A stretch of DNA of 64,000 nucleotides from Paracoccus marcusii (GTDB lineage Bacteria > Pseudomonadota > Alphaproteobacteria > Rhodobacterales > Rhodobacteraceae): the NCBI RefSeq assembly GCF_028621715.1, contig NZ_CP117466.1, positions 816,501 through 880,500 on the forward strand. Direction: 5' to 3'. This document shows, piece after piece, positions 11,889 to 41,781 of the stretch. Position 1 is the stretch's first letter; every line of letters begins with the position of its first letter. The notes beneath the pieces are model-generated. The model was given only the letters and a program-made list of their open reading frames with translations. It was not told the DNA's origin and made no database searches. Both the position numbers and the translations under genes were made by a program.

Positions 11889-12083
11889 ATGACACCTTGC
11901 CATCATCCTGACAATCGAGACCTTGATGACTGGGCCCTGTATGGGCCCAAAAATCCTGAGATCAGCCAGCTTGTGGATCAATTAGCCTTTGCTCATGGCC
12001 TGCGGGTGAAAGAGATCGAGGATTTCATTCTGCAGGCGCTGAAAAACCGCCTCGGTGAAGAAGAAGCGCGCCAGAAGGCCTAA
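11889..12083 (+). CDS. 64-residue protein, free form of the DUF429-tail domain
   Basis: A small acidic/basic helical protein with a clear ribosome site (AAGGAG upstream). Its sequence closely matches the last ~65 residues of the DUF429 protein encoded at 40744-41781: HHPD..xLDDWAxYGPK, EISxLVxxLAxxHGLRV and EIEDxILQxLKxRL are shared, roughly two thirds identical by eye. In both places a small tyrosine recombinase gene follows in the same orientation after an inverted-repeat site. I do not know this domain; an accessory role in recombination or regulation is inferred from the conserved order. Confidence 0.7.
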   Translation: MTPCHHPDNRDLDDWALYGPKNPEISQLVDQLAFAHGLRVKEIEDFILQALKNRLGEEEARQKA

Positions 12084-12089
12084 ATACTT

Positions 12090-12121
12090 ACTCTTTACAG
12101 AATACGCTTTTCGTAAAGAGT
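12090..12121. repeat. Inverted repeat between the 64-residue gene and the recombinase (candidate core site)
   Basis: Perfect 9-bp arms ACTCTTTAC (12090-12098) and GTAAAGAGT (12113-12121) are separated by 14 nt. The matching gap before the second recombinase has the same arms and the same spacer length (40703-40740). It may be a crossover or binding site for the recombinase or an operator. Confidence 0.7.
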
Positions 12122-12181
12122 TGGCGCAGACGGAATGAACCAGACCGCATGTTTCTTGAGCTAAGCGGATCCGCCAAACCA

Positions 12182-12769
12182 ATGTCCACACGGCGAAATG
12201 TCAAAAGTGATGCAGATGTGGCCGCCGATGCCCATGAGCGCGGTCGGGATTATCTAGGCCTTGCTCAGATCGATAAGCTCCTCGCGTGCGCCAAGGCTAG
12301 TCGGCACGGCGCACGGGATCATCTGCTAGTCTTGATGATGTTCCGGCACGGGTTGCGAGTTTCTGAAGCAATTGCCCTGCGCCGGGATCATGTCGATTTG
12401 GCGCAGTCCCGCCTTTGGGTGCCGCGGCTAAAACGGGGGCTGAGCGTCGAGCATCCCGTCGAGGGAGACGAACTACGGGCGATCCGACGCTGGCTCGGCC
12501 AACGAGACGACCTTCTGCCTTGGCTGTTCGTCTCGGAACGGCGGCAGCCGCTTACCCGGCAGGCCGTCAACTATATCCTCGCGGCGGCTGGAGAACGGGC
12601 CGGTCTCGGTCATATATATCCCCACATACTGCGCCATTCCTGCGGTTTCACGCTCGCCAATCGAGGATACGACCTACGACTGATTCAGGACTATCTCGGC
12701 CACCGTGATCCAAGGCACACAGCACGGTACACGCGAACAGCCGCAAGCCGGTTCGATGGGCTATGGTGA
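12182..12769 (+). CDS. Small tyrosine recombinase (left copy)
   Basis: A 195-residue integrase of the catalytic-domain-only type (like FimB/FimE or small resolvases). All catalytic residues are visible: Arg in RHGLRVSEAIAL, Lys in WVPRLKRG, His-x-x-Arg in HILRHSCG, the second His in YLGHRDP and the Tyr in ARYTRT. It is clearly paralogous to the protein at 40068-40700. I chose ATG 12182 since the alignment starts there; ATG 12149 is possible. It lacks the arm-binding domain of phage integrases, so it more likely resolves, inverts or flips nearby sites than integrates the island. Confidence 0.9.
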   Translation: MSTRRNVKSDADVAADAHERGRDYLGLAQIDKLLACAKASRHGARDHLLVLMMFRHGLRVSEAIALRRDHVDLAQSRLWVPRLKRGLSVEHPVEGDELRAIRRWLGQRDDLLPWLFVSERRQPLTRQAVNYILAAAGERAGLGHIYPHILRHSCGFTLANRGYDLRLIQDYLGHRDPRHTARYTRTAASRFDGLW

Positions 12770-12964
12770 GGGACAAACGACAGGGCCAAGGGAAGAATGG
12801 GCGGAATGCAGACTTACGGCGGTGCAGCATCGCGATTGCAGCGAACCCTGGACAAGCGGCCACTCGCGCGACGGAGCAACCACCCCGCCGCGATACCCGT
12901 TATTGGGGAGAAAGCAGCATGATGGCAGCGCCGTGTCGTGGGGGCGACAACGTGCTATCTATTG

Positions 12965-16788: not shown

Positions 16789-17165
16789 AAGGTAAACGCC
16801 CGCCAACTAAGGTTATGTAAAATTGGTCATTTATAGGTTATCTTTCGTGCGCCTAGCATCTCCTCTTTTCACGTCGCTGCGGTGGTCCTGAAGTCGACGC
16901 TTCAACTGTCGTTTTTCTGCAACACGCGTCTAAAGCCCCCCTCTGGAACTGACGCCGCGCAGCACTCTCTCCCGGCGAATGGCAGGTAACGGCCGAGTGC
17001 GCAGCTCAGAGGCTGCCGCGCCCCCCGCGCCCTCGCCAAGGGCGACAGATTGACGTGAAGAGCCCAAACCGGACGTTCGATCTGGGCAGCTGGAGTGGGC
17101 CAAGGAACCACGGTTTGCAGTTCACCGTTTAGCCCGAAGCCACGTTTGCGCAGCCGAGGGACGTC
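16789..17165. other. Gap without a supported gene (about 380 bp)
   Basis: The part next to the OLD gene is AT-rich (16800-16860) and probably holds its promoter. The rest is GC-rich and open in several frames, but none has a recognisable protein or ribosome site. I see no repeat or RNA here. Confidence 0.4.
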
Positions 17166-19294: not shown

Positions 19295-19520
19295 TCAGCG
19301 AGTACAGCAGAGGAACCCAACGCGGGAAAAGGCGCCTGCAAAGAAAGTGGGAGTGACGGCCGCTGCGCGCAGCACCGGTGCCGTGATCCTGACGGCAAAG
19401 CGAATACATCAGCGGGACTATTGGAACGGCCGCAGCTTCAGCGCCCGGCCCCGCACCGGCTGTGCTGGCTGGCAGCGTAGTTGCTTTGGTGGATGTTGAC
19501 GGGGCAATGTACGTTTGCTC

Positions 19521-20384: not shown

Positions 20385-20574
20385 AACCAGGAGGAGCCGG
20401 CCAAGTGCTGGTTTTTTACGGTCTAAAGGAACATTCGCGAGCAGATTTGCAACACACTCTCCAGAGGCAGGGGGGCTACTCACGCCGTCGTCTTAGAGGG
20501 CGGCGTCAAGTACTCCTTTGGTATGTTTAAGACTTTCCGAGCAGACTTGACGGAGCACAGGCTTCGGCATCCCA

Positions 20575-25753: not shown

Positions 25754-26023
25754 GCAAACGACAAGTAATCATGCCAGCCCTCAGAAACAAAATAAGACGA
25801 TGCAATCAGCAATTACCAAGCGTCTGCTGCCCATATTAAAAATTAGAACGTTTACCTCTATCCAGTAAATCGCACGCAATAATAATAGGTAGCTAAGCTG
25901 GCTGTGCCCGACCCAGCTACCAGCCAGGTGTTATTGCTGCAATAGCATTCGCTGCAGCTAGCGTGAACGTCGGAGACGAGCTATTCGCCTCGATCCTACT
26001 AGGTCCTCGATAGGCTGTTTTTC

Positions 26024-29418: not shown

Positions 29419-29547
29419 AATGACCGCAAACGGCTCTTCACGTCGATGCTGCGCCGACTGCTGACCGTCCGCTTTCGTCAAGCTGGCAAGCCCGAGAGGC
29501 AGGCTGCCTAATAGAAAAGGCAGAACTATGTGCCACAGAACATCGGG
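29419..29547. repeat. 129-bp imperfect direct repeat, internal copy
   Basis: Aligns without gaps to 50000-50128, which ends five bases before the 3' end of tRNA-Pro. Conserved cores are GCAAACGGCTCT, TGACCGTCCGCTTTCGT, GAGAGGCAG and the AGAAAAGGCA..ACTAT..TGCC block. No coding frame. It could be an old island boundary or a dispersed intergenic repeat. The rest of 29548-29720 shows nothing I can name. Confidence 0.7.
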
Positions 29548-29720
29548 TGGCAGGCGTCAGATAGTCCTGCCTTCAGGGGTGGGAAAAATTGCGTGAAATC
29601 AGTGGGGCCTGTTCGCGATGCGAAGGCGGGCCTGCCTTTCTTGTCACAAAGGTCTGCCTCTGATGGGCCGCAGCCCAATCTCTGGCCCGTGTTCCGCACT
29701 GGTCCGACATGTCGTGGCGC

Positions 29721-30070
29721 TCCTTCCTGTTCCGCCAGTGGCGAAGCCATCGCTGCTTTTCACTTTGGATGACCTCATGTCATCCGAAGGGCAAAGCAGG
29801 GTGGGCGCAGCCCGACCTGCGGCCGGACGGTGATCTGACACACGGGGCCGGAGCGGTGAAATTGGGAGGGACCCGCGCGCCCCGCGCGTGGGAGGAACCG
29901 GATTTTTCCGTGGAGGCTGACGCGCAGCGGCACCAGAGCCCGTGTTCGGATCGCCGGCCGGATGGCAGGCGGAAAAATGAAATGAAAGATCGTCAGCTGT
30001 GCCAGAGCGAAGCGGAGGCGCGGCTGTCTCCTGGATCAGCGATCGCGGTGCCCGCGATCACCATATCTCT
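29721..30070. repeat. Long inverted repeat, right copy
   Basis: Reverse complement of 26024-26371 with few differences over its full length. It ends at ACCATATCTCT, about 100 bp before the end of the next gene. The 30071-30168 stretch holds no gene. The GC-rich part is open in several frames, which is a composition effect. Confidence 0.9.
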
Positions 30071-30168
30071 TAAGAGGGGGCCCTGACGCTCGACAAAAAA
30101 TCATGATGCAATTCAGAGTCGTATGCCCAACAGAAGTGCCTCCACCCGCAGCAAGTACCCTCGCGATT

Positions 30169-31917
30169 TTACGTGAGCTGTGATAGGAACTGAGGTAGAG
30201 CCTCATCATTTGCCGCCTCGAGCTGCTCCTCCCAATCAGGGGGGAAATGCCTGAGGGTGCGAACCTCCGCGCGAACGATTTCGTTGAGCGGAAGCTTGTC
30301 GAGGAACGACATAGGAGGCAGCGCATCGGTTTCCTCCTCGCGCGCATAAGCAAGTGTGTCATCACCTACTGGCCAGAAATCGATCCGATACCGGCTTACC
30401 CAGAAGATTTTTTCAAGCTGCTCAATGCTCTCAGCGACAATGCGGGGCTTGCCTGCACAACGCTCAAACAGGTAGCGGAAAGTAGAAAAGTCACAGGCTG
30501 GAGTGAAATCACCACCGTCAAGTGAGGGATTGATATGGTCTCGCCACAGCAAGACGACGCGGTAAACGTTAGATGGATTCGCAGGAACGGTTTTCCCAAA
30601 TATATCCTTCAGTGACCACTGTCCGGATAGCAATGCGTTCCTCGCAGCATTCAGCTGCTGCACCGCCTTTCCAAAATTCACGCGATCGTCAGTGAAATTG
30701 GAAGCTTGGAATTCAGTTCGAAATCGATCGAAAACTGTTTTAACTTCACAGATGAGCAATTCGTTAGTGTCGTGGTCATAGATGCCTAAATCAATGTCGC
30801 CAATTCCGCTCTTCTTCTTCCGAGTAACGACAGTAATATTTTTAAACTGCTGGAGCTGATCGGCAATATAGTCCGCCGCACGGGCCAAATCACTACCGAA
30901 AGTGGTGCTCCAAATTTCGCCTCTCTTGCTTTGAACCTGCGCTATAAAAACTAGTTCGGGAAGCATCGCATGGTAGACGAACGGCCAAGCACGGTATTGC
31001 GAGCTTATTCTTAGGAATGGAACTGCCGATCCTGTTCGCCGTGCGGTTTCCGGGTCAGACGAGAGCAAATTCATCAATCGAATAAGCTCACGATTGTCGA
31101 TTGGATCGCGCTCATATGCTGAGGTAAAGGATCCGAGCAAGTCAAAAAGGGTATCTTCATCTAGCCAGCGGTACCCCATAGCGGGCAAAAGTGAAGCGAA
31201 CGCGAGCAAACTTAATAAGGATGCTTCTCTTACTTCCAGCGCTGTCAGCATCCGCTGCCAAGTTTCAGGTAGTCCCTTCCGTAGCACGTCGATCTCGCGC
31301 ATGTCGAGCAGCAGTGTCAACTTAGCACGGAGCGCGATGTCGGAGTCATGACCGCCGCCATTTTCCACCGCACCATTGATTATTTTGCGCTCTTCCTCAC
31401 TGTGTTCTAAGTAAAGGGCCTTGGTCCGCAGAAGCGTCAGCGCGCTCCGGCGGCGGGAGTCAGCTATAGCCGAAAGATAACGCTCGCCATCCTGCGATAC
31501 AATCCTCTTGCCACTTTCCACACTCACTCGCTCGTTTAAGGCAAGTATCTGGCCAAACTTAATGAGAAGGTATGTCTCAACGGCCGGATCTTCATCTCGG
31601 ACTACATTAATATAAAGTGGTATTGGAGAATCTGACATCGTTGGTGCTAGCTCGGCCAGAGTCTCTGCCAATATCCGAAAAGAAACAGAAAAGTCAGCGA
31701 ATCCCCAAGGAACAACATGGTCAACTGTTTCATTTGCACGTCGCTCTAGAACGTGCGCCGCCATTGGAACCGCATAGCCGGAGGGAGGCAAGGCCTGTCT
31801 TGCTCTAATGAGAAACTCGCTTTGCTCGGCCTCGAACTGCTTCAATCCTGCAACGTATTCTTCTGCGGCTTGGCTTAGGGCGATAGCGACCCGGCGCGGT
31901 GCTCTGCTTTTGGTCAT
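30169..31917 (-). CDS. Large protein with a C-terminal PD-(D/E)XK-like domain
   Basis: A 582-residue protein with AGGAG before its ATG. The N-terminal ~330 residues are helical and unrecognised. From about residue 370 it has GIGDIDLGIYDHDTNELLICEVKT, matching the Asp...Glu-x-Lys core of PD-(D/E)XK nucleases of the restriction type. It stands alone between the right inverted repeat and tniQ, where cargo of a Tn7-like element would sit. I infer a defence effector; no known system name fits. Confidence 0.6.
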   Translation of the reverse strand: MTKSRAPRRVAIALSQAAEEYVAGLKQFEAEQSEFLIRARQALPPSGYAVPMAAHVLERRANETVDHVVPWGFADFSVSFRILAETLAELAPTMSDSPIPLYINVVRDEDPAVETYLLIKFGQILALNERVSVESGKRIVSQDGERYLSAIADSRRRSALTLLRTKALYLEHSEEERKIINGAVENGGGHDSDIALRAKLTLLLDMREIDVLRKGLPETWQRMLTALEVREASLLSLLAFASLLPAMGYRWLDEDTLFDLLGSFTSAYERDPIDNRELIRLMNLLSSDPETARRTGSAVPFLRISSQYRAWPFVYHAMLPELVFIAQVQSKRGEIWSTTFGSDLARAADYIADQLQQFKNITVVTRKKKSGIGDIDLGIYDHDTNELLICEVKTVFDRFRTEFQASNFTDDRVNFGKAVQQLNAARNALLSGQWSLKDIFGKTVPANPSNVYRVVLLWRDHINPSLDGGDFTPACDFSTFRYLFERCAGKPRIVAESIEQLEKIFWVSRYRIDFWPVGDDTLAYAREEETDALPPMSFLDKLPLNEIVRAEVRTLRHFPPDWEEQLEAANDEALPQFLSQLT

Positions 31918-32160
31918 GGCCGCTCCTCATAAACTTCCTTAAGACAACTGCCCCTTTATTCTAAAGCGGGCAATCCGATCAGTAGCGCGGTCGAAGCTAG
32001 ATCATTGGCTCGGCGTCTTCGGTCCGCGGACCGACAACAGACGAATTAGTGCTGGCTCAACCAATTATATTGTGTACGCATCATTCAAATAGATGGTGTC
32101 TCTTGGACTAGTGGAGATGGTTTCAACGGCGAGTTCTGAACATGAGGAGCGCTTTGATCT

Positions 32161-33978
32161 TCATACAAAAAAGCTCGCTTCTGCAACCCAAATTAAGTCA
32201 CTCCGTCGGTATATCGTGTTGCAGCGGCTGTCCAAGGCGAGCGGCTGAATGCCACGATCGCTCTGCAGGATGGCCTCGGCGCCAGGCAGGCGACCAGACT
32301 GTGCAGCCAAAGTGGTGACCGTGATGTACTCGCCCGCGAATTTTTCAACCGATCGGGAGGAGACGTAGCGGCGGGTCCGGGCTGTCCGTCGTTCCTCAAC
32401 CACGCGAGGCTCCAAGATGCCTTGGTCGAGCAGGCCGCGCACCGTGCGGACGCTCACCTGCAAGCGTTTTGCAGCCTCGGTTGGCGTCACCGCTCCCTCT
32501 TGTTCAGCGCTGAACGCCTCCCGTAGTGCATCGAGCGACAAGCGGAAGTCGCGGAAGTGCGGTTGGGGTGCCCCGTTCGCGTATAACTTGATCCGGTTCT
32601 CGAGAATGACCTCGGTGACGCGATCCATCGGCACGCTGAGTCTTCTTGATGCCTCAGGAATATCGAGAGGATCTTGCGGGTCATCCTTGACCACGAGCCC
32701 GCTCAGCTTAGCCAGAAACGCCGCAAGGTCGCGAGGGTGGTAGAGCGGGGTGGTGTTATGCTCGGCATAGTATCTCGGGATCAGCCCCCGCGCCGTGAAC
32801 TTCGTCATCATGATGCGGTCGACGCCGACCCGCTCTGCTGCCTCCGTCGCGTTTAGGAGAGCGTCGACCTCCGTGACGATGCCGCGGACGACATCGGCCG
32901 GCGCATAATCACTCAGAATGAACCGCTTGCTGACGTTGCTGCGCTGAGCAAGGCCGCAAGCCGCCAGCCGCCTTCCGAGCTGCCAGCTTGAGATGCCGAA
33001 GGTACTTCGCGCCGTCGCGAACGAATGGACGTACTGCTCTGGACAAGGCTGCCCAAGCACCACCTGCCCTTCCGCGATTGGGAAGTTTCGGAACACGAAG
33101 TCCCGGACGATGTCCCGGATGGAATCAAAGTCCGGATCATCATCGCGATAGCGTAGCCATTCGAAGAACACCCGAAAGCGGGTTCGGTAGAGCGTGGCAT
33201 CGATCGGCTGCGCCATCTGAATGTCTTTAAGCTTGGCGCGAAAGGCGTCCGGGCCCTTGCACAGCACTCGAAACCCCGCCGTTCCAGCAGCTGCCCATTC
33301 AGCCGGCGCAACCAGATCGCGCTTGGTATCCGCCCCACGGGTGAGGAGGAGGCCGAACCCCTCGCATGTCTGCGCCGCGACATGATACGGTAAGCGGCCC
33401 AGCCAGCCGTCTCCTGCACCGGTCTTAACCCGCTGACGCAGGTATCGCTCCAGCTCCAGATCATCAGCCCTTGCAGGGGCCGGTTCGACCGGAACGTACT
33501 CCTCAAGCATCCGCATGATGTCAAAGGTATCATTGCCATTCTGACGTGGTGGCAGTGGAACGAGATAGCAGCCATGAACCGCGCAGGTCCGGACGGATGT
33601 CAGCTGCCACAGGCCATGATGGGCTGAATAATCTACATGCAGGCCGGCCGTCAGACAGGCCGGGCAGCTTCGCAGTGAGGTGCGGCTGAAAGCAGTGAAC
33701 TTGATCCGCTCCTCGCCAAGGCGGAACCATCCCGGCTCGATGAGCTGGGGGGTGTTCATCTGGAGGCATGCGCTATCAACGCCGGCAAGTGCAGCCAGAC
33801 GGCCCACCTCCTGAGGGTCGCCATTCGCAAGCGCGAAATAGTCGATCCCGACATCGGAGCAGAAGGTAATCAGCCTTTGCACGCCGTTCCTGCGGGCCAG
33901 ACGTGATCCGAGGGAGGTGGCGCACTCGCCGGGCACTAGATCTACTGTCAGGGGGAGCTGCTTAAGGCTGCTGAACAT
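32161..33978 (-). CDS. tniQ: TniQ/TnsD-family target-selection protein
   Basis: A 605-residue TniQ protein. The N-terminal domain has a zinc-finger layout: SCPACL at about 103-108, a YSAHHGLWQL stretch and TCAVHGCYLVPL. The C-terminal half carries several HTH segments, including a MerR-like one (PTEAAKRLQVSVRTVRGLLDQG). TniQ/TnsD proteins recruit TnsC and choose the insertion site. Its start overlaps the tnsC stop in TGATG, so translation is coupled. The long C-terminal DNA-binding part suggests sequence-specific targeting, as in TnsD, not guide RNA use; no Cas genes are nearby. Confidence 0.85.
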   Translation of the reverse strand: MFSSLKQLPLTVDLVPGECATSLGSRLARRNGVQRLITFCSDVGIDYFALANGDPQEVGRLAALAGVDSACLQMNTPQLIEPGWFRLGEERIKFTAFSRTSLRSCPACLTAGLHVDYSAHHGLWQLTSVRTCAVHGCYLVPLPPRQNGNDTFDIMRMLEEYVPVEPAPARADDLELERYLRQRVKTGAGDGWLGRLPYHVAAQTCEGFGLLLTRGADTKRDLVAPAEWAAAGTAGFRVLCKGPDAFRAKLKDIQMAQPIDATLYRTRFRVFFEWLRYRDDDPDFDSIRDIVRDFVFRNFPIAEGQVVLGQPCPEQYVHSFATARSTFGISSWQLGRRLAACGLAQRSNVSKRFILSDYAPADVVRGIVTEVDALLNATEAAERVGVDRIMMTKFTARGLIPRYYAEHNTTPLYHPRDLAAFLAKLSGLVVKDDPQDPLDIPEASRRLSVPMDRVTEVILENRIKLYANGAPQPHFRDFRLSLDALREAFSAEQEGAVTPTEAAKRLQVSVRTVRGLLDQGILEPRVVEERRTARTRRYVSSRSVEKFAGEYITVTTLAAQSGRLPGAEAILQSDRGIQPLALDSRCNTIYRRSDLIWVAEASFFV

Positions 33979-34931
33979 CAGCGTTTCTCCCGTGAGAAGA
34001 CCTGCCGCGCATCGATGCGGACAAAATCAGGGATGATGAAGGGATTGAACGTGTCGTCACAGGCCGTGCGCAGGTGATAAGCCAAGGCAAAATGAGCACG
34101 GGTCAGCCGGGGTGCACCGGCCAGATACGCCTGCTCGACAGCCGCGACGATCAACTCGATGACTAGGCCGAACTGGTTTGCAGCGGCGTGGATGAGCCGC
34201 TCCCCGTGCGCGAGCTCAAGAGTATCCGAGCCCGGCGCAAGCTCTGCCTTGCTGCAGTAGCTTTCGATGAGGTCAAGGACATCATTCCCGTGCGCCACCG
34301 GCGACAGGCTCTCGAAGTGGACCGTGTCCATGCGCCGGGCCAGCTGCGAATCATGGTTCAGAATGTCCTCGAGTTCTGGTGTGCCCGAGAGAATGATGCC
34401 AACCGGCCATTCCGAATCCGTCATCAGCGTTTTGAGCATGGAGGCAACCGAATCAAGCTCATGCCGTGTTCCGCGGGATGCCAGATCCTGGGCCTCGTCC
34501 AGATGGACAAAGAGGATTTTCCGCTCTTTCAGGTGATGCCGGACCAGGTCCCAGATGTACCAGGCCTGCCGTTCGGAACTGATCTGGTAGCCGAGGGCCC
34601 GCAGCAGGGTCTGTCCGACGAACTTCAACGTCGCAGGTGACGGCACCCTGATACTAACGATTGAAAAATCCTCATGACCGGAGCGCTCAAGCCATCCGCG
34701 GCTCCGCACCATGAGCTGAACCATCGCTGATGTCTTCCCTGCGCCGGATGGGCCCGAAAGGGCCAGTCCATGCGCTTCGCTCGTCCTTCCCGCCTCGCAA
34801 TCGGCCAGCCGCTTCTCGATCAGGAGGGAGAAGCGAGCCTCAAGCGGCTCAAAACGATCGTGGTGGATGAAGTGACCGCGCAGAAGCGCGATCCTCCGGG
34901 CAGTATATTTGATCCGGTCACTGCTCATCAT
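33978..34931 (-). CDS. tnsC: TnsC/TniB-type AAA+ transposition regulator
   Basis: A 317-residue AAA+ ATPase with Walker A GPSGAGKT (60-67), Walker B ILFVHLDEAQDL (about 139-150), and sensor region ILSGTPELEDIL. These are the features of TnsC/TniB proteins, which link target choice to the transposase. I chose the ATG at 34931, which overlaps the tnsB stop by 14 bp; the longer frame to 35039 lies inside tnsB and is unlike the family. It is the third gene of the operon. Confidence 0.88.
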   Translation of the reverse strand: MMSSDRIKYTARRIALLRGHFIHHDRFEPLEARFSLLIEKRLADCEAGRTSEAHGLALSGPSGAGKTSAMVQLMVRSRGWLERSGHEDFSIVSIRVPSPATLKFVGQTLLRALGYQISSERQAWYIWDLVRHHLKERKILFVHLDEAQDLASRGTRHELDSVASMLKTLMTDSEWPVGIILSGTPELEDILNHDSQLARRMDTVHFESLSPVAHGNDVLDLIESYCSKAELAPGSDTLELAHGERLIHAAANQFGLVIELIVAAVEQAYLAGAPRLTRAHFALAYHLRTACDDTFNPFIIPDFVRIDARQVFSREKR

Positions 34932-37053
34932 CGAACCTCCAACGGTTCTTGCGCGTGCGCTCCTGTGCCGGCGACTCGGAACTGTCTTTGGGCAGATCCG
35001 GCGGCATGAACGTTCGCGGCGTGATCTGAATGCCGTCAACCAGGGGATCGGCAGATGGGGTCATGCGCGCAAGCCGCTCCGCATCGGATCGGACGGGATA
35101 CTGCAGGGCGGCCTGATGGCGCTCCACATCCAGGTCGGTGACATGGAACGGGGTCAGCTCCCTCAGCGCGAACGCGCGGCGGTTGATGTCCGAAATCCGT
35201 TCGATGGCCCTGCGGACTTTCGGCGCGTCGAGTTCGGCATCTTTCCGATGCTTGCTGCGCAAGGTCCGGGTAGCTTCTTGCATCAGATCATAACTGACAC
35301 CATCGAAGCCGCTTTGATTCGCCGTAGCCGGGTGCCACGTAGCGCCCACCTTTACTGCGATCCATCCCATGTCCCGCAGATCCGCGCGTATCTCTACGTT
35401 TCGCTGCGGGGAGTGCAGGAACGCCTCCCGCAGCGCCTTGCAGCTGTAGGTCAGCCCCGAAAGCAAGATCCCGTCGCCCCGCAGCTTGCGCTCCAGAGGC
35501 CTGCCAAATGCGCGGCGCAGCGTCAGGCCGTCCGGGACCGGAGGTGTTCCATACCTGGCCACCAGTCGCGCCCAAGCCTCGTTGGGGGTTTCTCCCCCAA
35601 GTGAGCCGTGCCCTTGGTTGTGATAGATGTCGACGACATAGGTCAGCAGAATGGTGATCAGATCGTCGTCGCAGAGGCAGGCCAATTGCTCTGACGGATA
35701 ATCGCCACGCTGGATCGTGTCGAAGAAGGTCCTTCCGGCCAGCAAGGGCATCAGTTGGTGGCCATACGTCCGAAAGAACGTTTCGATATGGCCACGAAGC
35801 CATGGCTTCCCGGCAGGCGGCAGAAGCGTAGTAACGCCGAGGGACAAAACGGCGCCTTGGAAGTCATCGGACGTGAATGCCGTCCCCTGGTCGGTGACCA
35901 GTGCCTGCACCCCGCCATGATGATGCCATGTGCTTTCGCATCCGGCCGCACGCGCCATTGGCGTCTTGTCGATGAAGATGTCCCGCAGCGCCCTGACCGC
36001 ATCGCTGGAGTTCGGTGTCTCGGCCAGGCGCATGGAGAGGATGCATCTCGTTGCGCAGTCGATCGCGACATAGAGCCAACGCCGACCGGCCTCGAACCGC
36101 TCCTGCCGCTCGGGCGGAAGATGATCCCAGATGCCCGACAGCGTCAGGAGCGAGATCACATCGAGGCGGTTCTCGTCCATCTCGACACGCTCAAGCGGCT
36201 GCGTCACGTCCACCCCTGTCTCAAAAAGCGTGAACTTGGCGTTCGCGGCCGCCGTGCCATAGCGCTTGGCATGGACGTAATACGGATCCGCAAGACCCAA
36301 ACGCCGTCTGAGACTGGCCGCAGACGGGACGACAAGCGTGGGGGCTCCAGCAGCTGCCCTGCGCTCGCTCTCGCGGACGAACAGCTGCCGCGTGTCAGCC
36401 ACCGCCGCTGCCTTGGTGGGCCGTTGCGTATCGGCGTAGATCTCGATGACCTGGTTCATCAAAGCTTCCGAGTGAAGACACCATCGAGGGGCGCGGTTGC
36501 CGCAGCGATGAGTTTCCGGAATCAGGGCGAGGGCGGAGTACCCTGCCCGCTCGTAGCTGCGCACCCATTGGAATGCCGTGCGGCTGCCCGGAAGCTGGCG
36601 CGTGATGATTTCCGCGCCCGGCCGGGCCAGCTTTGCCGCCGCCATGCCCTCACCGACCCGCCGCTCCACCTCGCAGGAAAGCTTGGCACGGCCCTCAGCG
36701 TAGCCTGCATGAGTCCGATTGATTTCCCCGGCTGCCTCAAAGGCCAGAAAGGCATCACAGACCGCTTTGCGCCAGATGACCAGCCGCCGAACATCATGTG
36801 CAAGCCCATTGATGATATCGGTCGGCTTACGACCGCGCAGGTCCTGCTTGGCGCGATCAAAATAGCCGGCGATATAGGCGGTGTCGGGTTGTCGCAGCAG
36901 GTCCGCCAGTTCCTCATGCGTCAGGCGTTCTGTGATGCCCGGTTGGCCGAGCCGCTCGAAGAGGCCGCCCTTGTCGTCGATTTCCAACGGGCGCATGGCA
37001 ACGCCAGCGGCGGTGATCAGGTCAGACTTCGAGAACCGGAAACGGATTGTCAT
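34918..37053 (-). CDS. tnsB: TnsB-type DDE transposase
   Basis: A 711-residue transposase. The catalytic core is complete: Asp293 in VEMDENRLD, Asp388 in ALVTDQGTAF and Glu424 in RGHIETFFRTYG, with 35 residues between the last two (DDx35E). N-terminal HTH-like segments and a C-terminal Mu-type barrel region flank it. TnsB cuts and joins the transposon 3' ends. It overlaps tnsA by 4 bp (ATGA). Confidence 0.9.
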   Translation of the reverse strand: MTIRFRFSKSDLITAAGVAMRPLEIDDKGGLFERLGQPGITERLTHEELADLLRQPDTAYIAGYFDRAKQDLRGRKPTDIINGLAHDVRRLVIWRKAVCDAFLAFEAAGEINRTHAGYAEGRAKLSCEVERRVGEGMAAAKLARPGAEIITRQLPGSRTAFQWVRSYERAGYSALALIPETHRCGNRAPRWCLHSEALMNQVIEIYADTQRPTKAAAVADTRQLFVRESERRAAAGAPTLVVPSAASLRRRLGLADPYYVHAKRYGTAAANAKFTLFETGVDVTQPLERVEMDENRLDVISLLTLSGIWDHLPPERQERFEAGRRWLYVAIDCATRCILSMRLAETPNSSDAVRALRDIFIDKTPMARAAGCESTWHHHGGVQALVTDQGTAFTSDDFQGAVLSLGVTTLLPPAGKPWLRGHIETFFRTYGHQLMPLLAGRTFFDTIQRGDYPSEQLACLCDDDLITILLTYVVDIYHNQGHGSLGGETPNEAWARLVARYGTPPVPDGLTLRRAFGRPLERKLRGDGILLSGLTYSCKALREAFLHSPQRNVEIRADLRDMGWIAVKVGATWHPATANQSGFDGVSYDLMQEATRTLRSKHRKDAELDAPKVRRAIERISDINRRAFALRELTPFHVTDLDVERHQAALQYPVRSDAERLARMTPSADPLVDGIQITPRTFMPPDLPKDSSESPAQERTRKNRWRFDDEQ

Positions 37054-37550
37054 GCTGCCACCTCCGTAAAAGGTGGGCGCGACCGGGCCAGCTGGCGTGC
37101 GGCCTCGGCAGCTGCACGGCGATCGAGGTGCTGATCCGTGATCAGCATGACGCGGTCCGCAAATTGCTTCGGCGTTGCGGCGGCAACTCGCTCCAGCTCA
37201 GAGACGAAGTTCTGCTGGATTACCCGCTGCATCGGCTTGATAGCCACTGCAACACGTTCTCCCCCTGTCGTAGTGACCAGGAAGTCGAAGACGTGCTTCG
37301 CTGGCAGCCCGCTGGCGTCGGCGTATTGCACCGCCGTCGGCTGGTCCCAGATATGGTGGATGTCAGTGCGCACCAGCATCAGGCAGAGGAACGCGTATTC
37401 AAGCGCGCTCTCAAACTGGATGATGCGCGGACGCTCAAAGCCCGGCAGCTTTACGACAAGCGCCCCGCGTAGACTGGCCTTGGAACGGCGCGAGATGGCC
37501 CGCGTCGCGTGGCTTGGCTCAGGGCCGATGTAGATCAGGTTCTGTTTCAT
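37050..37550 (-). CDS. tnsA: TnsA-type endonuclease
   Basis: A 166-residue nuclease. Shared with the orphan copy at 9651 are FESALEYAFLCLMLV.TDIHHIWDQP, a VFDFLVTTTGGERVAVAIKP block with the likely catalytic Asp and Lys, and a strand VMLIT. It lacks the C-terminal winged-helix region of longer TnsA proteins. It is the first gene of the tnsA-tnsB-tnsC-tniQ operon, so transposition should be cut-and-paste. ATG 37550 opens MKQNLIYIGPEPSHATR, where related proteins begin; the frame is open to 37697. Confidence 0.8.
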   Translation of the reverse strand: MKQNLIYIGPEPSHATRAISRRSKASLRGALVVKLPGFERPRIIQFESALEYAFLCLMLVRTDIHHIWDQPTAVQYADASGLPAKHVFDFLVTTTGGERVAVAIKPMQRVIQQNFVSELERVAAATPKQFADRVMLITDQHLDRRAAAEAARQLARSRPPFTEVAA

Positions 37551-37710
37551 GATGTTCCGGTCACGCTGCCAGTCACACCGGATTGGGCAGTCATGATCCC
37601 CCTTTTCTGTGGATGTGTTGAACAGCCCTGCCGGACGACCGCCCGGCAGGTTGACTTTTTGTTCGCCTCGGGGGATGACTTTGGTGTCGGGTATCAATCG
37701 ACATCTAAGA

Positions 37711-37744
37711 GGGGCGATCCTGTTACCAGCAGGTGCCCCTTTTT
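37711..37744 (+). terminator. Intrinsic terminator in the ner-tnsA gap
   Basis: Hairpin GGGGC-gat-CCTG, loop, CAGG-t-GCCCC followed by five T on the plus strand. In this orientation it would stop plus-strand transcripts before they run antisense into the Ner-like gene. On the minus strand the hairpin lies between ner and tnsA. Confidence 0.6.
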
Positions 37745-37756
37745 CATGTCCCGTTG

Positions 37757-37999
37757 TCAGCTACTTTCGGCTGATCGACCCTCCTGTGAGATGTAGCGGT
37801 CCGGAAAGAGCTCCTCTGGGGTCGTGCCGAGCTGTTCCGCGATCTCTCGCTGCACGCGATGCGATCGTCGATATCCCTGGCTGACCACTGTGACGCTGCT
37901 TTGGGAAATGCCAAGTAGCCGGGCGATCTTCGCCATCGAAGATCCCGTCAGCCGAAGCCGACACTTGAGAAGCTCGTGGTGTTCAAGATTGACCTTCAT
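37757..37999 (-). CDS. Ner-like HTH regulator of the tns operon (right copy)
   Basis: An 80-residue Ner/Nlp-type DNA-binding protein: KVNLEHHELLKCRLRL, HTH MAKIARLLGISQSSVTVVSQGYRRS, and IAEQLGTTPEELFPDRY. It matches the protein at 10555-10797 in layout and motif. Both precede a tnsA-like gene. A repressor of the tns genes is the likely role. ATG 37999 chosen; TTG 38011 is open. Confidence 0.75.
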   Translation of the reverse strand: MKVNLEHHELLKCRLRLTGSSMAKIARLLGISQSSVTVVSQGYRRSHRVQREIAEQLGTTPEELFPDRYISQEGRSAESS

Positions 38000-38044
38000 G
38001 GGCTGCTGCAAGTCCTTGGTCCGCGTAGTTGCTCTCTCCTCAGA

Positions 38045-38150
38045 GATTCGAAAAACGAATCACATGGCAACCATTTCCGTCATTCGGCTTGCACTTCATT
38101 CACTTTGGCCCGTGCGGGACCGGGCCAAAGTGAGAGGCGGGGCCAAAGTC
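38045..38150. promoter_or_regulatory. Palindromic operators upstream of ner-tns
   Basis: Two perfect palindromes lie in the divergent gap: GATTCG-N5-CGAATC (38045-38061) and CACTTTGGCCC-N10-GGGCCAAAGTG (38101-38132), plus a third half-site GGGCCAAAGTC at 38140-38150. Likely binding sites for the Ner-like protein or for the transposase. Confidence 0.55.
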
Positions 38151-38221
38151 ACGAAAAATCTTGGCGTATGGGGAGAAGCAAGACACGATTGCGGAGCTGA
38201 CCAGCAGGATGGACCAACGAC

Positions 38222-38936
38222 GTGACCGCGGAGCAACCCCCCGAAAATGCTGCACCTGATCCGGTGACGGAAAATCGGGCCGAAGGCTCGTTAGCCGCAT
38301 TGTCGCGGCACTCCTCTACCGATGCAGTGATCGATGAGACACAGGCGACACGTTCGGACAAAAGCGACTGCGGCCAAGTTTCGCCGCTGCAAGACCTAAG
38401 ACGATGTCGGAGGGTTCTTTCAGCCGAAGAGCTGGCCAATATTGCATCCGATTTTGAGAATGCGTGGCAGCAGGTAAATTTCTCCAAGAGCTCGCCGTGG
38501 CTTCATAGCAGCTTAACTATGCAGCAAAGGGGCCACGTCTCACGAGAACTTCCTGAGGCAGAGGAAGTCCGCAAGCTTTACAATGATTCGGGATCACTGG
38601 TGCAATTTGCAAACCTTTTTATCCTTGACCGAAATGGGGCAATAAAGGCGCTTTCGGCTGCCGGAATCGATATTTATGAAGACGTAGGGCGTGACTGGGA
38701 CAGCCATCATTCATTCAGAGAACTCAGCAGACGGCATGGTGTAACGCGCGATACAATCTCGATGGATCAAAATAGCCGGCCGGGAGGTACCACCCCGGAA
38801 TAGCAAAAAGAAGTATAAAATCGATCTGATCGTCAAAGCTTACGGCGAGAAGTCAACAACCAATTACGCCGCAAAGGCAGCCGGTGTTCACTGGCAAACT
38901 GCGCAACGGGCCTTAAAGAAGCAACGGACTTGTTGA
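38222..38936 (+). pseudogene. Frameshifted protein with C-terminal HTH segments
   Basis: The first frame (GTG 38222, stop at 38803) encodes 193 residues that end in an HTH-like ELSRRHGVTRDTIS. A second frame continues directly: WIKIAGREVPPRNSK, then KIDLIVKAYGEKSTTNYAAKAAGVHWQTAQRALKK, stop at 38934-38936. Joining them at about 38760 gives a coherent pair of HTH units, so one base is extra or two are missing near TCGATGG. It is divergent from ner-tns and could be an accessory DNA-binding protein of the element. Sequencing error is possible. Confidence 0.6.
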
Positions 38937-39118
38937 TGGCCGCGTTTTGGACAAGATCCTTTTAAGGCATCGTTCTACACTAGTTGTGACGACGTTCGGT
39001 TAGGGCCACAGACAAATGGGTGTAAATAGGTCACGAGCCGTTCAGAATGTCGTAAACCATCGGCACAATCACCTGAACATCCTGATGACAGGCCCCTCGG
39101 CCGTAAGTGGACATTGGC

Positions 39119-40018
39119 ATGTCAAGCTCGCGAGCTAACTTCCTGATTGAGATTACTGGAGAGAAGATCCCGGTCAGGGAAGGCTCTCTATTGCATGAGG
39201 GCTTCATTGCTCTGCGATCGTGCCACGGGAAATCCTACCAGGAGTTTCGTGATCAAGCGGGCGGAGCAAAAGGCTCTAAATCCCGCCGATACTCCCCGTC
39301 CGCGGTACTGAACAAGGCAGAGCAAACAGGCTTCGCGCGACTTCTCTCTCACGGCGGAGCAACACGCACAGACAACCCTAACGCCTCTGCAGGTCGACTG
39401 CCCGCGGCACGGCTGCACGAAGTGACTGCCGAGCATGTGCGCCAAGCCGTTTTTGATACTATCGATCAGGGATGGTCGTCACCCTCTACGGACTCACGCT
39501 CGTTCGACCTGATAACGGATGACGGCGAACGCCTTCCGCCTAAGGTCGTTTTCGGGCGTGCCGCGACGCTAGCGCTAGGCTTTCCAGTATTGCCGAGCCA
39601 CTTCTCGGGTGGAGAAGGCACTCCCTGTTTCAGAGTTCTTCGAAGGGCCGGTTATGCCGTTGTTCCGAAGGATCAGGAACTGCCTGTTATCCCAGAATTC
39701 ACGGCTGACGATCTGACGTGGTCGGAGGGAAGTCAGCAGCTGGTCCATCACCTCCGCCGCGAGCGGGCACGGGGCGCGGCGCAGGCCAAACGTGACTCAT
39801 TCCGACAAGAGCACGGAAGGCTCTTCTGCGAAAAATGTAACTTCGATCCGATGGACCATTATGGCGGACCGGAGGGTGAGGCTTGCATTGAGGTTCACCA
39901 CAAGGCCACCGCCATTTCGGAAATGACAGCTGGCCATCGCACCAGTCTTGCAGACCTTCAGTGCCTCTGTGCGAACTGTCATCGTGTTGTTCATAAGCTC
40001 TTGAAGATGACGACCTGA
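39119..40018 (+). CDS. HNH endonuclease, McrA-like
   Basis: A 299-residue protein with a C-terminal HNH domain: FCEKCNF, IEVHHKATAISEM and LQCLCANCHRVVHKL, with two Cys pairs binding zinc and the catalytic His in EVHH. The middle part (SRSFDLITDDGERLPPKVVFGRA...) resembles the DNA-sensing domain found in McrA-like restriction enzymes for modified DNA. A role against phage DNA is inferred. ATG 39119 chosen; GTG 39107 is also open. It converges with the recombinase gene. Confidence 0.8.
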   Translation: MSSSRANFLIEITGEKIPVREGSLLHEGFIALRSCHGKSYQEFRDQAGGAKGSKSRRYSPSAVLNKAEQTGFARLLSHGGATRTDNPNASAGRLPAARLHEVTAEHVRQAVFDTIDQGWSSPSTDSRSFDLITDDGERLPPKVVFGRAATLALGFPVLPSHFSGGEGTPCFRVLRRAGYAVVPKDQELPVIPEFTADDLTWSEGSQQLVHHLRRERARGAAQAKRDSFRQEHGRLFCEKCNFDPMDHYGGPEGEACIEVHHKATAISEMTAGHRTSLADLQCLCANCHRVVHKLLKMTT

Positions 40019-40067
40019 CCGCATCGAACCAACGGCTTATCCTCAGCATCACGATCTGATTGGAATG

Positions 40068-40700
40068 CTACCAAAGCCCTTCGAAGCGCGTCGCTGCCGT
40101 TCTCGTATAGCGTACCGTGTGCCGGGGATCGCGATGGCCGAGATAATCTTGGATCAGGCGCAGGTCGCGCCCGGCATGGGCCAAGGCATGCCCGCAGGAA
40201 TGGCGCAGCATGTGCGGATGGACAGCCCCGAGACCGGCCCGTGCCGCAATGACCGTCACGAGATAGTTGACGGCCTGCCGCGTCATCGGCTGACCGCGCT
40301 CGGACAGGAACAGCCAGGGCAGGCCATCCTGCCGATCTGACAGAATACGCCGGATCGCGCGCAACTCATCGCCTGCAAGGGGGTGGCTGGTGGAGAGACC
40401 ACGCTTCAACCGATGAACCCAAAGATTTCCCGCTTTTAGATCAAGATCACTGCGGCGCAGCGCAATCAATTCGCTCACCCGCAGTCCGTGCCGATACATG
40501 AGGAGCAGCATGGCATGATCGCGCGGGCCGTGCCGCCCTGACCGGGCCGCGATCAGCAGCCGCCTCATCTCATCCGGCGTCAGGTAATCGCGCGGCCGCT
40601 GATGGGCATCGACGGGTGCAATCCCGTCACTCTTGACGAAACGCCGGTTGGCGCGCGGCCCAAACATGCGGTCCTCCCCTACGATTGCTGGCTCCGCCAT
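40068..40700 (-). CDS. Small tyrosine recombinase (right copy)
   Basis: A 210-residue catalytic-domain recombinase, clearly paralogous to the one at 12182-12769 (VKSD, DAH.R.RDYL, SRHG.RDH, YRHGLRVSELIALRR, GLS..HP..GDELRAIRR). Catalytic residues are all present: Arg in RHGLRVSE, Lys in WVHRLKRG, HMLRHSCG, GHRDPRH and the Tyr in VRYTRT. ATG 40700 directly follows the inverted-repeat site; an in-frame TTG lies inside that site. It may act on the site upstream of itself. Confidence 0.9.
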   Translation of the reverse strand: MAEPAIVGEDRMFGPRANRRFVKSDGIAPVDAHQRPRDYLTPDEMRRLLIAARSGRHGPRDHAMLLLMYRHGLRVSELIALRRSDLDLKAGNLWVHRLKRGLSTSHPLAGDELRAIRRILSDRQDGLPWLFLSERGQPMTRQAVNYLVTVIAARAGLGAVHPHMLRHSCGHALAHAGRDLRLIQDYLGHRDPRHTVRYTRTAATRFEGLW

Positions 40701-40702
40701 CC

Positions 40703-40740
40703 TCAACTCTTGACGATATGCTCATTCCGTAAAGAGTTGA
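40703..40740. repeat. Inverted repeat before the right recombinase (candidate core site)
   Basis: Arms TCAACTCTTGAC (40703-40714) and GTAAAGAGTTGA (40729-40740) pair over 12 bp with one mismatch, separated by 14 nt. The inner arms match the site at 12090-12121. Read along each recombinase gene, the spacers agree at about 9 of 14 positions. Confidence 0.7.
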
Positions 40741-40743
40741 GCG

Positions 40744-41781
40744 TCACGATTTCGGGCGTTTCTCTTTTAATGCAAGCCGGTCCTTCAGCGTCTGCAGGAT
40801 CAGATCCTCGATCTCGCGGACCCGCAGTCCATGTTCCAGAGCGAGGCAACTGACGAGCCGGCTAATCTCGGCGTCCTTGGGGCCGTAGGTCGCCCAATCA
40901 TCCAGTTCGTGACTGTCTGGATGATGAGCCACTGCAACAGCAGGCTGAGGATACTGGTGCGCAGGAGGACGATCGGAAATATGCGGATCGGCGATCCATC
41001 CTTCCAATGGGTCTACGACATCCGGCGCGCCAAACCTCGCATCACGCTGCCGCCAAGCCCAAGCAGCCTGAACGGCGCAGAGGAAAGCGTCGAGATGGTC
41101 GGCGCCGGGATCGTCGCACAGGTTATCGGGGGCGATGATGCCAAAGCCGTATCGGGCTGGCGCCTCCTCGCGCAGGGCATGAAGCAAGCTATGGCGAGCC
41201 TGCCGCTGATCTGCAGTTTGCTTGCTGCGCGCATCATTCTTGTAGCTACGGCGACCGATGAATTGACGGGCCAGAAGGCCAGGATAGGCCTCAACCACGA
41301 TACGCTGCGCATCACCGGCATGGAGGTGGGGGATGGTCACGCCTGAAGCAAGAAGACGGGGAGCACCCTCGAAGAACATCAGACCGACAGGCACCCCGTA
41401 AAGCTTCTGTGGACTAATCGAGCTCGCCTGCTTGTCGGTTGCACGACGATGCTCTTTATCACCCGCAGCCCGGTTTTCCTTGTACGCTTCCAATGCCTCG
41501 CGAAAGCCGTCGCGACCAAGCTGGCCCGCGTGTCGAACATATCCCTCCCAAGTCGATGGCCAGCCGGCAGTCTCGACAAATCGGCGGGCCTGACCGAAGG
41601 GAAAATCAATTCCCGCAATCCACGGCCCGGGCTGTACCAATGCTGAGTTGAACGCGCCAAAGTCGGACCACTCCTCAAGGGACCGCGTGAGCAGATGATC
41701 TCCCTCCAGTGTGCAGCAAAGACAAGTAATCGGCTTGCGCCGAGAGGGGCTGCTTGTGAAATCAATGCCGAGAATGTTCAT
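40744..41781 (-). CDS. DUF429 protein fused to the recombinase-associated 64-residue domain
   Basis: A 345-residue protein. Residues 1 to about 265 form a DUF429 domain with an RNase H-like fold start (MNILGIDFTSSPSRRKP) and the WIAGIDFPFGQARRF motif, an EAYPGLLAR stretch and a DHLDAFLCAVQAAWA helix. After a Pro-rich linker, the last ~65 residues (HHPDSHELDDWATYGPKDAEI...) match the free protein at 11889-12083. DUF429 function is poorly known; the fold hints at nucleic acid binding or nuclease activity. The recombinase gene follows 43 bp downstream in the same direction. Confidence 0.75.
   Translation of the reverse strand: MNILGIDFTSSPSRRKPITCLCCTLEGDHLLTRSLEEWSDFGAFNSALVQPGPWIAGIDFPFGQARRFVETAGWPSTWEGYVRHAGQLGRDGFREALEAYKENRAAGDKEHRRATDKQASSISPQKLYGVPVGLMFFEGAPRLLASGVTIPHLHAGDAQRIVVEAYPGLLARQFIGRRSYKNDARSKQTADQRQARHSLLHALREEAPARYGFGIIAPDNLCDDPGADHLDAFLCAVQAAWAWRQRDARFGAPDVVDPLEGWIADPHISDRPPAHQYPQPAVAVAHHPDSHELDDWATYGPKDAEISRLVSCLALEHGLRVREIEDLILQTLKDRLALKEKRPKS

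Follow-up and report, generated by a model that had tools for sequence, protein, structure and literature searches.

Two small tyrosine recombinases, each with its own proposed recognition site, in two stacked mobile elements of Paracoccus marcusii

A preliminary description of the window (the whole 64,000-nucleotide stretch of Paracoccus marcusii DNA analysed here) proposed that a domain of 64 residues, an inverted-repeat site and a small tyrosine recombinase occur together twice as a working unit. The locus raises two questions: which of these parts belong together, and what they do. The features at the two places are:

11889..12083, forward strand: 64-residue domain 1 (weak PSK_trans_fac-like match, E 0.016, below the cut-off)
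12090..12121, forward strand: core site 1 (arm ACTCTTTACAGAA, spacer TACGCT, arm TTTCGTAAAGAGT)
12182..12769, forward strand: recombinase 1 (195 aa, catalytic domain only)
12200..12208, forward strand: third arm 1 (GTCAAAAGT, codons V-K-S of the recombinase 1 gene, +110 from the site start)
40068..40667, reverse strand: recombinase 2 (199 aa)
40629..40637, reverse strand: third arm 2 (GTCAAGAGT, in the gene for recombinase 2, +100 from the site start)
40706..40737, reverse strand: core site 2 (arm ACTCTTTACGGAA, spacer TGAGCA, arm TATCGTCAAGAGT)
40744..40938, reverse strand: domain 2 (forms the C-terminal region of the DUF429 protein 40744-41781)
40960..41781, reverse strand: DUF429 part of the fused protein

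The dyad ACTCTT(T/G)AC-N14-GTAAAGAGT was indeed present at both places (12090-12121 and 40706-40737). No third copy with up to three mismatches was found elsewhere in the window, where 0.03 would be expected per shuffled window, or in the rest of the 3.18-Mb genome. The two recombinases are 65% identical and match the Phage_integrase profile over nearly their whole length. Inspection of the alignment bore out the claim that both keep the R, K, H, R, H and Y positions, which we take to have their usual catalytic roles, and both qualify on this basis as tyrosine recombinases. Alignments to XerA and XerD start at query residues 28 and 23 and chain residues 104 and 106, respectively, showing that the window proteins have no core-binding domain. 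In a tree of recombinase relatives (20 of 82 sequences were left out for stops or length), the two fall into separate clades, and modules 1 and 2 are therefore not a simple duplication.

Domain, site and recombinase do recur in the window, with the qualification that the second domain, 61% identical to the first, makes up the C-terminal region of a DUF429 protein. The idea that the domain always precedes a small tyrosine recombinase did not survive. By tblastn, just two of the 80 related recombinase loci had the domain nearby: L060, and L081, where it lies ≈2.8 kb away; some of the 80 loci hold little upstream DNA. Among 292 Rhodobacterales genomes, 11 contained the domain (E ≤ 1e-3), seven the recombinase (E ≤ 1e-40) and only three both; three of the seven recombinase genomes thus carry the domain. 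The preliminary description had itself named a domain occurring mainly without recombinases as the outcome that would overturn its proposal, and this is what was seen in eight of the 11 domain-bearing genomes. The domain was rejected as a general third part on these two counts. The linkage of domain, site and recombinase is nevertheless real locally in Paracoccus, where it is found in both window modules and in two P. nototheniae modules on one contig. The functional unit is the recombinase with its site, and the domain is only a local neighbour.

The elements that carry the two modules could be delineated from their ends and transposition genes:

9651..10379, reverse strand: TnsA-like gene left in element A, the carrier of module 1
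29419..29542: right end of element A (repeated at 50000-50123; identity 78% over a 129-nt repeat)
29543..29547: left copy of the target duplication flanking transposon B (TCGGG)
29548..50123: transposon B, Tn7-like, the carrier of module 2 (each end, read inward, is TG-N9-AGATAG)
32161..33978, reverse strand: TniQ
33978..35039, reverse strand: TnsC/TniB
34918..37053, reverse strand: TnsB (rve, just under the Pfam cut-off)
37050..37697, reverse strand: TnsA-like protein of transposon B (E 3.5e-4, below the Pfam threshold; has the E, D and K positions)
50124..50128: right copy of the target duplication flanking transposon B (TCGGG), 4 bp from tRNA-Pro
50133..50209, reverse strand: tRNA-Pro(CGG), insertion hotspot

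The left end of transposon B directly follows the right end of element A. Two Tn7-like elements have inserted successively beside tRNA-Pro, each with one module, and only transposon B is complete.

The window sites are convergent and lie 28.6 kb apart, and the closest named sequence family, that of the similarly short FimB/FimE invertases, suggests a fim-like switch in which the two sites flip the segment between them. Fim switches consist of inverted repeats around an invertible segment with a matching crossover sequence. Here, the only two cores in the genome have spacers that agree at 3 of 6 positions, a difference that makes inversion between them unlikely, and no invertible promoter segment was seen. 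Unlike FimB/FimE, the recombinases score 171 and 183.1 bits against NF007370, under the curated cut-off of 221. The sites also reside in separate elements, and exactly one core with up to two mismatches was found in 29 of 48 genomes searched (more in 14, none in five). Inversion of the 28.6 kb was rejected on the spacers and the arrangement of the elements, and we regard a switch of this kind as very improbable. Of the two roles offered in the preliminary description, resolution or inversion, the former is the best-supported job of the site and recombinase.

A core with up to five mismatches was found upstream of 68 of the 80 related recombinases, in most loci ≈80–95 bp from the gene; the repeat is thus conserved in other members, as the preliminary description had required, and this part of the working unit stands. 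(The 12 loci with no recognised core reach a contig edge or have at least six mismatches; the core of L051 is 2 bp shorter.) Together with the window modules, this gave 70 site loci, reduced to 63 by deduplication at 85% identity. Conserved across phyla, the core spans 32 bp, with two 13-bp arms and a 6-bp spacer, longer than the 9-14-9 dyad first noted. Information content in the 63 loci was 1.34 and 1.39 bits per base in the arms, 0.61 in the spacer, 0.01 in the left flank and 0.14 in the right flank.

A third arm, missed in the preliminary description, is located ≈77 bp downstream of the core within the first codons of the recombinase gene, in the same orientation as the core arms (a direct repeat). 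It was present with up to two mismatches in 62 of 63 loci, compared to 0–4 of 61–63 in six control windows. The serine codon at this position is AGT in 67 of 67 genes, versus 85 of 646 serine codons (13%) elsewhere in the same genes, and in 44 of 44 GC-rich genes, versus 7.1%; 13 of 82 recombinases without the V-K-S motif and two near-copies had been excluded beforehand. A recombinase arm concealed in the enzyme's own reading frame would be an uncommon case of coding DNA serving two purposes.

The carriers of the site differ. Compact Tn3-family transposons (L024–L026, L028, L029 and L071) have the order tnpA–site–recombinase and 38-bp terminal repeats. A 16.6-kb plasmid encodes rep, parA, mobQ and the recombinase and has one core; the 18 annotated features listed, of 19 in all, include no transposase. 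Transposases of the kinds searched were absent from 41 of the 80 loci, and no core was found beside the more distant plasmid recombinases L155–L158 (≈50% identity). Beside tnpA and on a small plasmid, the relatives are placed as a resolvase would be.

We consider it most probable, at roughly 0.7, that each module works as a site-specific recombination system in its own right, serving resolution where there is a single core and cassette exchange where cores are paired. Its enzyme, a tyrosine recombinase of the FimB/FimE branch consisting of the catalytic domain alone, would bind a composite site and catalyse cleavage and strand exchange at the 32-bp core, with the same-orientation arm in its first codons as a putative further contact. 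In one-core carriers (Tn3-family and Tn7-like transposons, the plasmid), the recombinase would resolve cointegrates or multimers, where two copies of the core stand in direct repeat. Where two convergent cores with unlike spacers surround cargo, as in Flavobacteriaceae islands, crossovers at like spacers between two molecules would swap the cargo, analogous to recombinase-mediated cassette exchange. In the window, each module would act on its own carrier, by resolution or exchange, and neither on the other. More generally, relatives of the recombinase–site pair in other bacteria seem to take apart fused mobile DNA and to permit the swapping of anti-virus gene blocks.

The preliminary description knew of no described system with this composition; close precedents do exist in TnpI/irs, predicted Tn7-like tyrosine resolvases and Acinetobacter dif modules, and the module is likened to the first for resolution and to the last for exchange. 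TnpI is a full-length enzyme with a core-binding domain, unlike the ≈195–200-aa recombinases here, which have the catalytic domain only. As described in the accessible text of PMC7157771, TnpI of Tn4430 and Tn5401 is a Tn3-family tyrosine recombinase whose site, an inverted-repeat core with direct-repeat accessory sites, adjoins the resolvase gene; that text names only three TnpI-bearing Tn3-family transposons. The six Tn3-family relatives, with their adjoining site, fit this description. The window copies, in Tn7-like elements, do not, and the carriers here also include a plasmid and islands. An irs site comprises core inverted repeats, DR1 and DR2; at the present site, a core and one direct-repeat arm, inside coding sequence, were observed.

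For the Tn7-like carriers, one observation counts against a resolution role. An alignment of 15 TnsA sequences shows the E, D and K positions kept in 14 (three of these from elements without recombinase), so that cut-and-paste movement would be expected and a resolvase unneeded. The roles of these positions in TnsA are our assumption, since no relative of solved structure was found by sequence. Module 2, inside a transposon with its TCGGG duplication (29548-50123), does resemble the tyrosine resolvases (tnsR) of Tn7-like transposons, which the accessible part of PMC8649781 predicts to resolve cointegrates; there tnsR goes with tnsA loss, unlike here, and section 11 of that article describes no recombination site for it. 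Our literature search, with subscription papers and preprints mostly beyond reach, found no published description of the core, and the matches listed for its two 9-mers in literature text all look unrelated.

In 69 of 97 pairs of relatives at ≥75% identity, homology begins at the core (−10 to +12), most commonly exactly at 0 (39 pairs); Tn3–Tn3 pairs were excluded, and the pairs are not independent because the loci are related. The other 28 start further right (15), at 11–60 bp left (seven) or extend further left (six). We considered whether the core might instead mark an end (att) of an element that the recombinase integrates, the DNA to the left of the core being that of differing hosts, as the exact joining of unrelated left flanks at the core in many pairs would suggest. 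However, the left flank may consist of transposon or backbone genes (tnpA; relaxase), no second core was found at the far end of three Maribacter elements at the scan threshold used, and the second cores in Flavobacteriaceae are inverted and have other spacers. An att role is therefore unlikely. Since right breakpoints show no common end beyond the recombinase stop among the relatives, we do not claim a fixed site–recombinase cassette with two sharp ends.

Paired cores are best seen in Flavobacteriaceae, where 13 of 13 close pairs are convergent, with two different spacer classes, and flank variable cargo, mostly defence (PADLOC on 20 proteins from 10 of 12 distinct cassettes, G552 and G442 being left out). 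The B cores are located 4–18 kb from core A. The recombinase is missing from eight of the 13 cassettes, and a search that included a control found none elsewhere in those genomes; all eight nevertheless retain the third arm with at most one mismatch. In one genome, the flanks resemble one relative (87–91% identity) and the cargo another (97% over 11.6 kb), identity rising stepwise from ≈84% to 97% at core A and falling again at core B. Judging from these steps, the mosaic is likely a natural cassette exchange. It is the only clear swap found, and its two cores now bear arm changes. Ordinary homologous recombination between conserved backbones, which are 80–91% identical, could also have replaced the cargo, leaving the cores as bystanders; such exchange would place breakpoints in the flanks, and with both steps at the cores we find it improbable. 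One relative, G328, has its cassette turned round with respect to the same backbone, an arrangement not accounted for by strict exchange between like spacers.

These cassettes also bear on the possibility that the dyad is merely an operator, bound together with the third arm by the recombinase or another protein to control the gene, with no strand exchange. The position of the core upstream and of the third arm at the coding start would suit an operator, and resolvases are known to repress at res sites, according to the accessible text of PMC7157771. An operator does not, however, predict recombinase-less cores, B cores at such distances, breakpoints at cores or the swap. As the whole explanation it seems quite unlikely; an operator role may exist in addition to recombination.

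If cargo is exchanged as proposed, two convergent cores with conserved, unlike spacers would label the cargo ends so that only like ends recombine, and the same three-arm site in Tn3-family and Tn7-like elements and the plasmid would make resolving and exchanging two uses of one module. We give even odds to the stronger proposal of a dedicated tyrosine recombinase family that exchanges whole anti-phage systems between mobile islands, the third arm marking the left end, while the same site resolves the transposons and plasmid. The accessible text of PMC13141974 describes Acinetobacter dif modules (pdif, XerC/XerD) with 6-bp spacers and inversely oriented flanking sites, which recombine when spacers match or nearly match, and proposes single-module exchange via a cointegrate and its resolution. 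The 13 Flavobacteriaceae pairs (the window pair is not counted) share the spacer length and inverse orientation. In that account, dif sites are 28 bp with distinct XerC and XerD halves and use host recombinases, whereas the cores here are 32-bp, near-symmetric 13-6-13 sites. Also particular to the present system are a dedicated recombinase in some cassettes, ends distinguished by spacer and third arm, and chromosomal islands with relaxase genes and mostly defence cargo.

Cassette exchange would offer a testable mechanism, with exact junctions and a named enzyme, by which defence systems could arrive with precise boundaries at the same positions in islands. The 32-bp core is a searchable mark that also flags defence cassette ends, and a small recombinase with spacer-coded cores could become a cassette-exchange tool.

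Cores without any nearby recombinase also exist. Two lone cores, with spacers GCTGCG (L133, third arm at two mismatches) and GGCATC (L134, five mismatches), were placed in neither spacer class. Outside Flavobacteriaceae, the close core pairs are direct in P. nototheniae, and at a looser threshold pairs are direct in L057, divergent in L036 and mixed in L073.

Two places in the window hold a module in which a dyad directly precedes the gene of a small tyrosine recombinase. This much of the preliminary description was borne out. One module is in a putative older element (element A), the other in a Tn7-like transposon (transposon B).

Features of the two modules
12090–12121: dyad 1 (the core of module 1), sequence match
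12182–12769, + strand: recombinase 1, small tyrosine recombinase, dyad 1 just upstream
12200–12208, + strand: third arm of module 1, at +110 from the site start
40706–40737: dyad 2 (the core of module 2), sequence match
40068–40667, − strand: recombinase 2, small tyrosine recombinase, dyad 2 just upstream
40637–40629, − strand: third arm of module 2, at +100 from the site start

The recombinases are 65% identical, and no further dyad within 3 mismatches was found in the window or in the 3.18-Mb genome. Both recombinases cover the Phage_integrase profile almost end to end. Their top-scoring family was the FimB/FimE-type invertases, yet at 171 and 183 bits they fell below the cut-off of 221, and the alignment of recombinase 2 to XerA and XerD starts only at the catalytic domain. 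(Tyrosine-recombinase classes are covered in PMC8138268.) We infer that the window copies are active. A Gabija-like pair (OLD-TOPRIM ATPase and UvrD helicase; 12965–16806) follows immediately downstream of recombinase 1, and a similar pair adjoins the recombinase of a related locus, L013. A 64-residue DDWAxYGPK-type domain is encoded upstream of both dyads, the second copy being the tail of a DUF429 protein (40744–41781); the same pair occurs in an open frame of equal length in P. nototheniae (L113).

A scan of genome contigs confirmed 107 recombinase-encoding loci, the best 80 of which, from Alpha- and Gammaproteobacteria, Myxococcota, Bacteroidota and others, served as relatives. A core with at most 5 mismatches lies upstream of the recombinase in 68 of these best 80, and the repeat is thus conserved beyond the window. 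The 64-residue domain had been proposed as one part of a three-part unit with site and recombinase, and this did not hold: it was nearby in 2 of the best 80 loci, and of the 292 genomes searched within the order, 11 carried the domain (E ≤ 1e-3), 7 the recombinase (E ≤ 1e-40) and 3 both, so that the domain does not always precede a small tyrosine recombinase. In L118, L119 and L122 it sits beside Tn7-like genes with no recombinase nearby. The three-part order does recur locally in Paracoccus, in both window modules and in two modules that share a contig in P. nototheniae, but it is not general. Because the domain is near so few of the loci and is also found without a recombinase, the unit consists of site and recombinase. 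Four recombinases that are ≈50% identical (L155–L158) are on small plasmids, some adjoining parA or toxin-antitoxin genes. No core of this type was found near them, and they probably represent related resolution systems that use other sites.

Site statistics were derived from 63 deduplicated loci. Information content per base is 1.34 and 1.39 bits in the arms, 0.61 in the 6-bp spacer, and 0.01 and 0.14 in the left and right flanks. A tyrosine-recombinase core is expected to have a 13-6-13 layout; judged by its sequence, the site, with conserved arms and a variable spacer, matches this layout, and the recombinase would bind and cut it. The right arm occurs once more, and in the same orientation, within the V-K-S codons of the recombinase gene. 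This third arm was present within 2 mismatches in 62/63 loci, compared to 2/61, 0/63, 4/63, 0/63, 0/63 and 3/63 in six control windows, and its start falls +98 to +111 from that of the site, most often at +101; the two window spacings differ by about one helical turn. The sole exception to this range is L061 (genome G326), where the recombinase frame begins inside the core and V-K-S is encoded by the right arm of the core, as if the DNA from right arm to third arm had been deleted. The V-K-S serine codon is AGT in 67/67 distinct genes vs. 85/646 serine codons further along (44/44 vs. 7.1% in GC-rich genes), while the motif is missing from 13/82 recombinases, some of them truncated. The third arm is kept (≤1 mismatch) in 8/8 cassettes without a recombinase gene, and is therefore not there for the protein alone; it may act as an accessory or regulatory arm.

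Homology between loci was compared pairwise at ≥75% identity. With Tn3–Tn3 pairs excluded, the point where homology starts falls at the core (−10 to +12) for 69 of the 97 pairs, exactly at 0 for 39, although the loci are related and the pairs not independent. Module 1 and L005, homologous from 12090, form one such pair. The rest start further right (15), start 11–60 bp left (7) or reach further left (6). When Tn3–Tn3 pairs are counted in, 69/114 start at the core and 23 extend left.

Among the best 80 of 107 loci, a Tn3-family transposase was found within 2 kb in 20, relatives of TnsA or TnsB no more than 8 kb away in 10, an rve+AAA pair in 4, another rve gene in 3 and a mixture in 2; the remaining 41 had none of the searched transposase kinds, many contigs ending nearby. 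Carrier labels resting on weak matches include those of L064 and L048 as well as the Tn7 label given to L031. In six loci (L024, L025, L026, L028, L029 and L071, of which L024–L026 are near-copies of each other), a compact element is bounded by 38-bp terminal repeats, identical at 38/38 positions in four and at 37/38 and 36/38 in the others, and carries the recombinase between tnpA and the right-hand repeat. In L024, ≈110 bp separate tnpA from the recombinase, and the core is within them. By eye, a 5-bp target duplication was seen in L026 (GATAT) and L028 (TTGTT), and none was visible in L029 and L071. No right repeat was found near the recombinase gene in four other Tn3-type loci examined. 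Besides replication, partition and mobilization genes, the 16.6-kb plasmid NZ_CP043623 carries the recombinase gene, a single core and its third arm, with no transposase among 18 of its 19 annotated features. The compact Tn3-family carriers and the plasmid fit the resolution of cointegrates and multimers.

The carriers in the window lie at a tRNA-Pro gene.

29548–50123: Tn7-like transposon B, holding module 2, with TnsA-, TnsB-, TnsC/TniB- and TniQ-like genes (TnsA and TnsB matches just below Pfam cut-offs)

Both ends of transposon B read TG-N9-AGATAG inward, and TCGGG flanks each side, 4 bp from tRNA-Pro. Its right-end sequence is repeated at 29419–29547 (78% identical), which we read as the putative right end of the older element carrying module 1 and a TnsA-like gene; the left end of that element was not found. 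The twin modules thus represent two elements stacked at one target. L005, L018, L023, L082 and L136 also have a match to the tRNA-Pro region next to their related recombinases. The two window recombinases fall in separate clades, and by well-supported branches of the tree the Tn7-like label changed at least four times and the Tn3 label at least six, indicating that the module moved between carriers. Tn7-like transposons with tyrosine resolvases have been predicted, mostly where tnsA was lost (PMC8649781). Here, the TnsA E, D and K positions are retained in 14/15 sequences, which speaks against a need for resolution in the Tn7-like carriers. A repeat of ≈235–370 bp occurs in both orientations at 26021–26388, 29704–30073 and 47708–47942 (88–98% identical in ungapped pieces), one copy being near the left end of transposon B. 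By eye, transposon B carries type I restriction genes and another cargo gene (41911–49896), and an IS3-like OrfA remnant (9459–9640) lies at the end of element A's run of tns genes.

In Flavobacteriaceae, a match within 2 mismatches was found in 50/397 genomes, many by chance judging by the spacer. Core pairs (≤2 mismatches, within 20 kb on one contig) numbered 13, 10 from the 397-genome scan and 3 from another, and all 13 were convergent, 4.4 to 18.3 kb apart. Core A, the member adjoining the recombinase where one is present, has the spacer AGCGGA in 11/13 (AGCGTA and AGTGGA in the other two), and core B has GGTGCR in 11/13 (otherwise GCTGCA and GGAGCG). The third arm is found at core A in 12/13 and at core B in 0/13. 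Lone cores of A type with no gene nearby kept it in 6/7, and lone cores of GGTGCR or GGTTCA type in 0/4; two lone cores lie outside both spacer classes, and one of these has a third arm with 2 mismatches. The recombinase frame on the inner side of core A is open in four cassettes (G322, G326, G328 and G329), broken in one (G332) and absent in eight, and no recombinase was found elsewhere in those eight genomes by a search that recovered it in 6/6 control genomes. A looser scan showed an extra core within the G326 cassette (L061), oriented like core A. Outside Flavobacteriaceae, a pair in P. nototheniae is direct and 15.5 kb apart, and the looser scan gave direct (L057), divergent (L036) and mixed (L073) arrangements.

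A single island backbone is common to genomes G418, G682 and G717, and on it the flanks of G418 are 87–91% identical to G682 and 80–84% to G717. In G418, the stretch that begins immediately right of core A and runs up to core B is instead 97.0% identical to G717 across 11,557 bp, and no match of the G418 cargo to that of G682 was found. Right of core B, G418 is again 87–91% identical to G682 and 84% to G717. At base level, the change in identity falls inside the cores; at core B, G418 agrees with G682 in the first base of the spacer, and all of the genomes compared have the same cargo-side arm. Read from these alignments, the pattern is that expected after two like-spacer crossovers. The same slot holds three different cargos, in G552, in G682 and in G717/G418. 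Against a swap, this is a single event, and the cores of G418 have been altered since. Furthermore, in G328 (contig 21, L213) the A–B cassette is reversed relative to the same relaxase-bearing backbone as in G682, G418, G717 and G552, which like-spacer exchange does not explain. We infer that resolution and exchange are the reactions.

In anatomy the module resembles TnpI/irs, described as a two-repeat core with direct-repeat accessory sites (PMC7157771). In use it resembles the Acinetobacter dif modules, whose sites are inversely oriented and follow matching-spacer rules, and for which exchange of a single module through a cointegrate has been proposed (PMC13141974). It differs from both in its enzyme, core, third arm and spacer-coded ends.

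Of ten distinct cassettes scanned with PADLOC, eight had proteins below 1e-20, while the G328 cassette gave a weak match only and the G322 cassette none. Matches included Avs2 and Ppl-like proteins, SIR2 (two cassettes), HamB, QatA/QatD with a DRT reverse transcriptase, an AriA/OLD-like ATPase, a PifA-like protein, and a methyltransferase, which alone is weak evidence of defence. A relaxase is among the neighbouring genes in the G418, G328 and G314 islands, with NikA/MobC beside that of G328; a conjugative coupling protein is encoded beside the G329 cassette, and an integrase beyond core B in G418.
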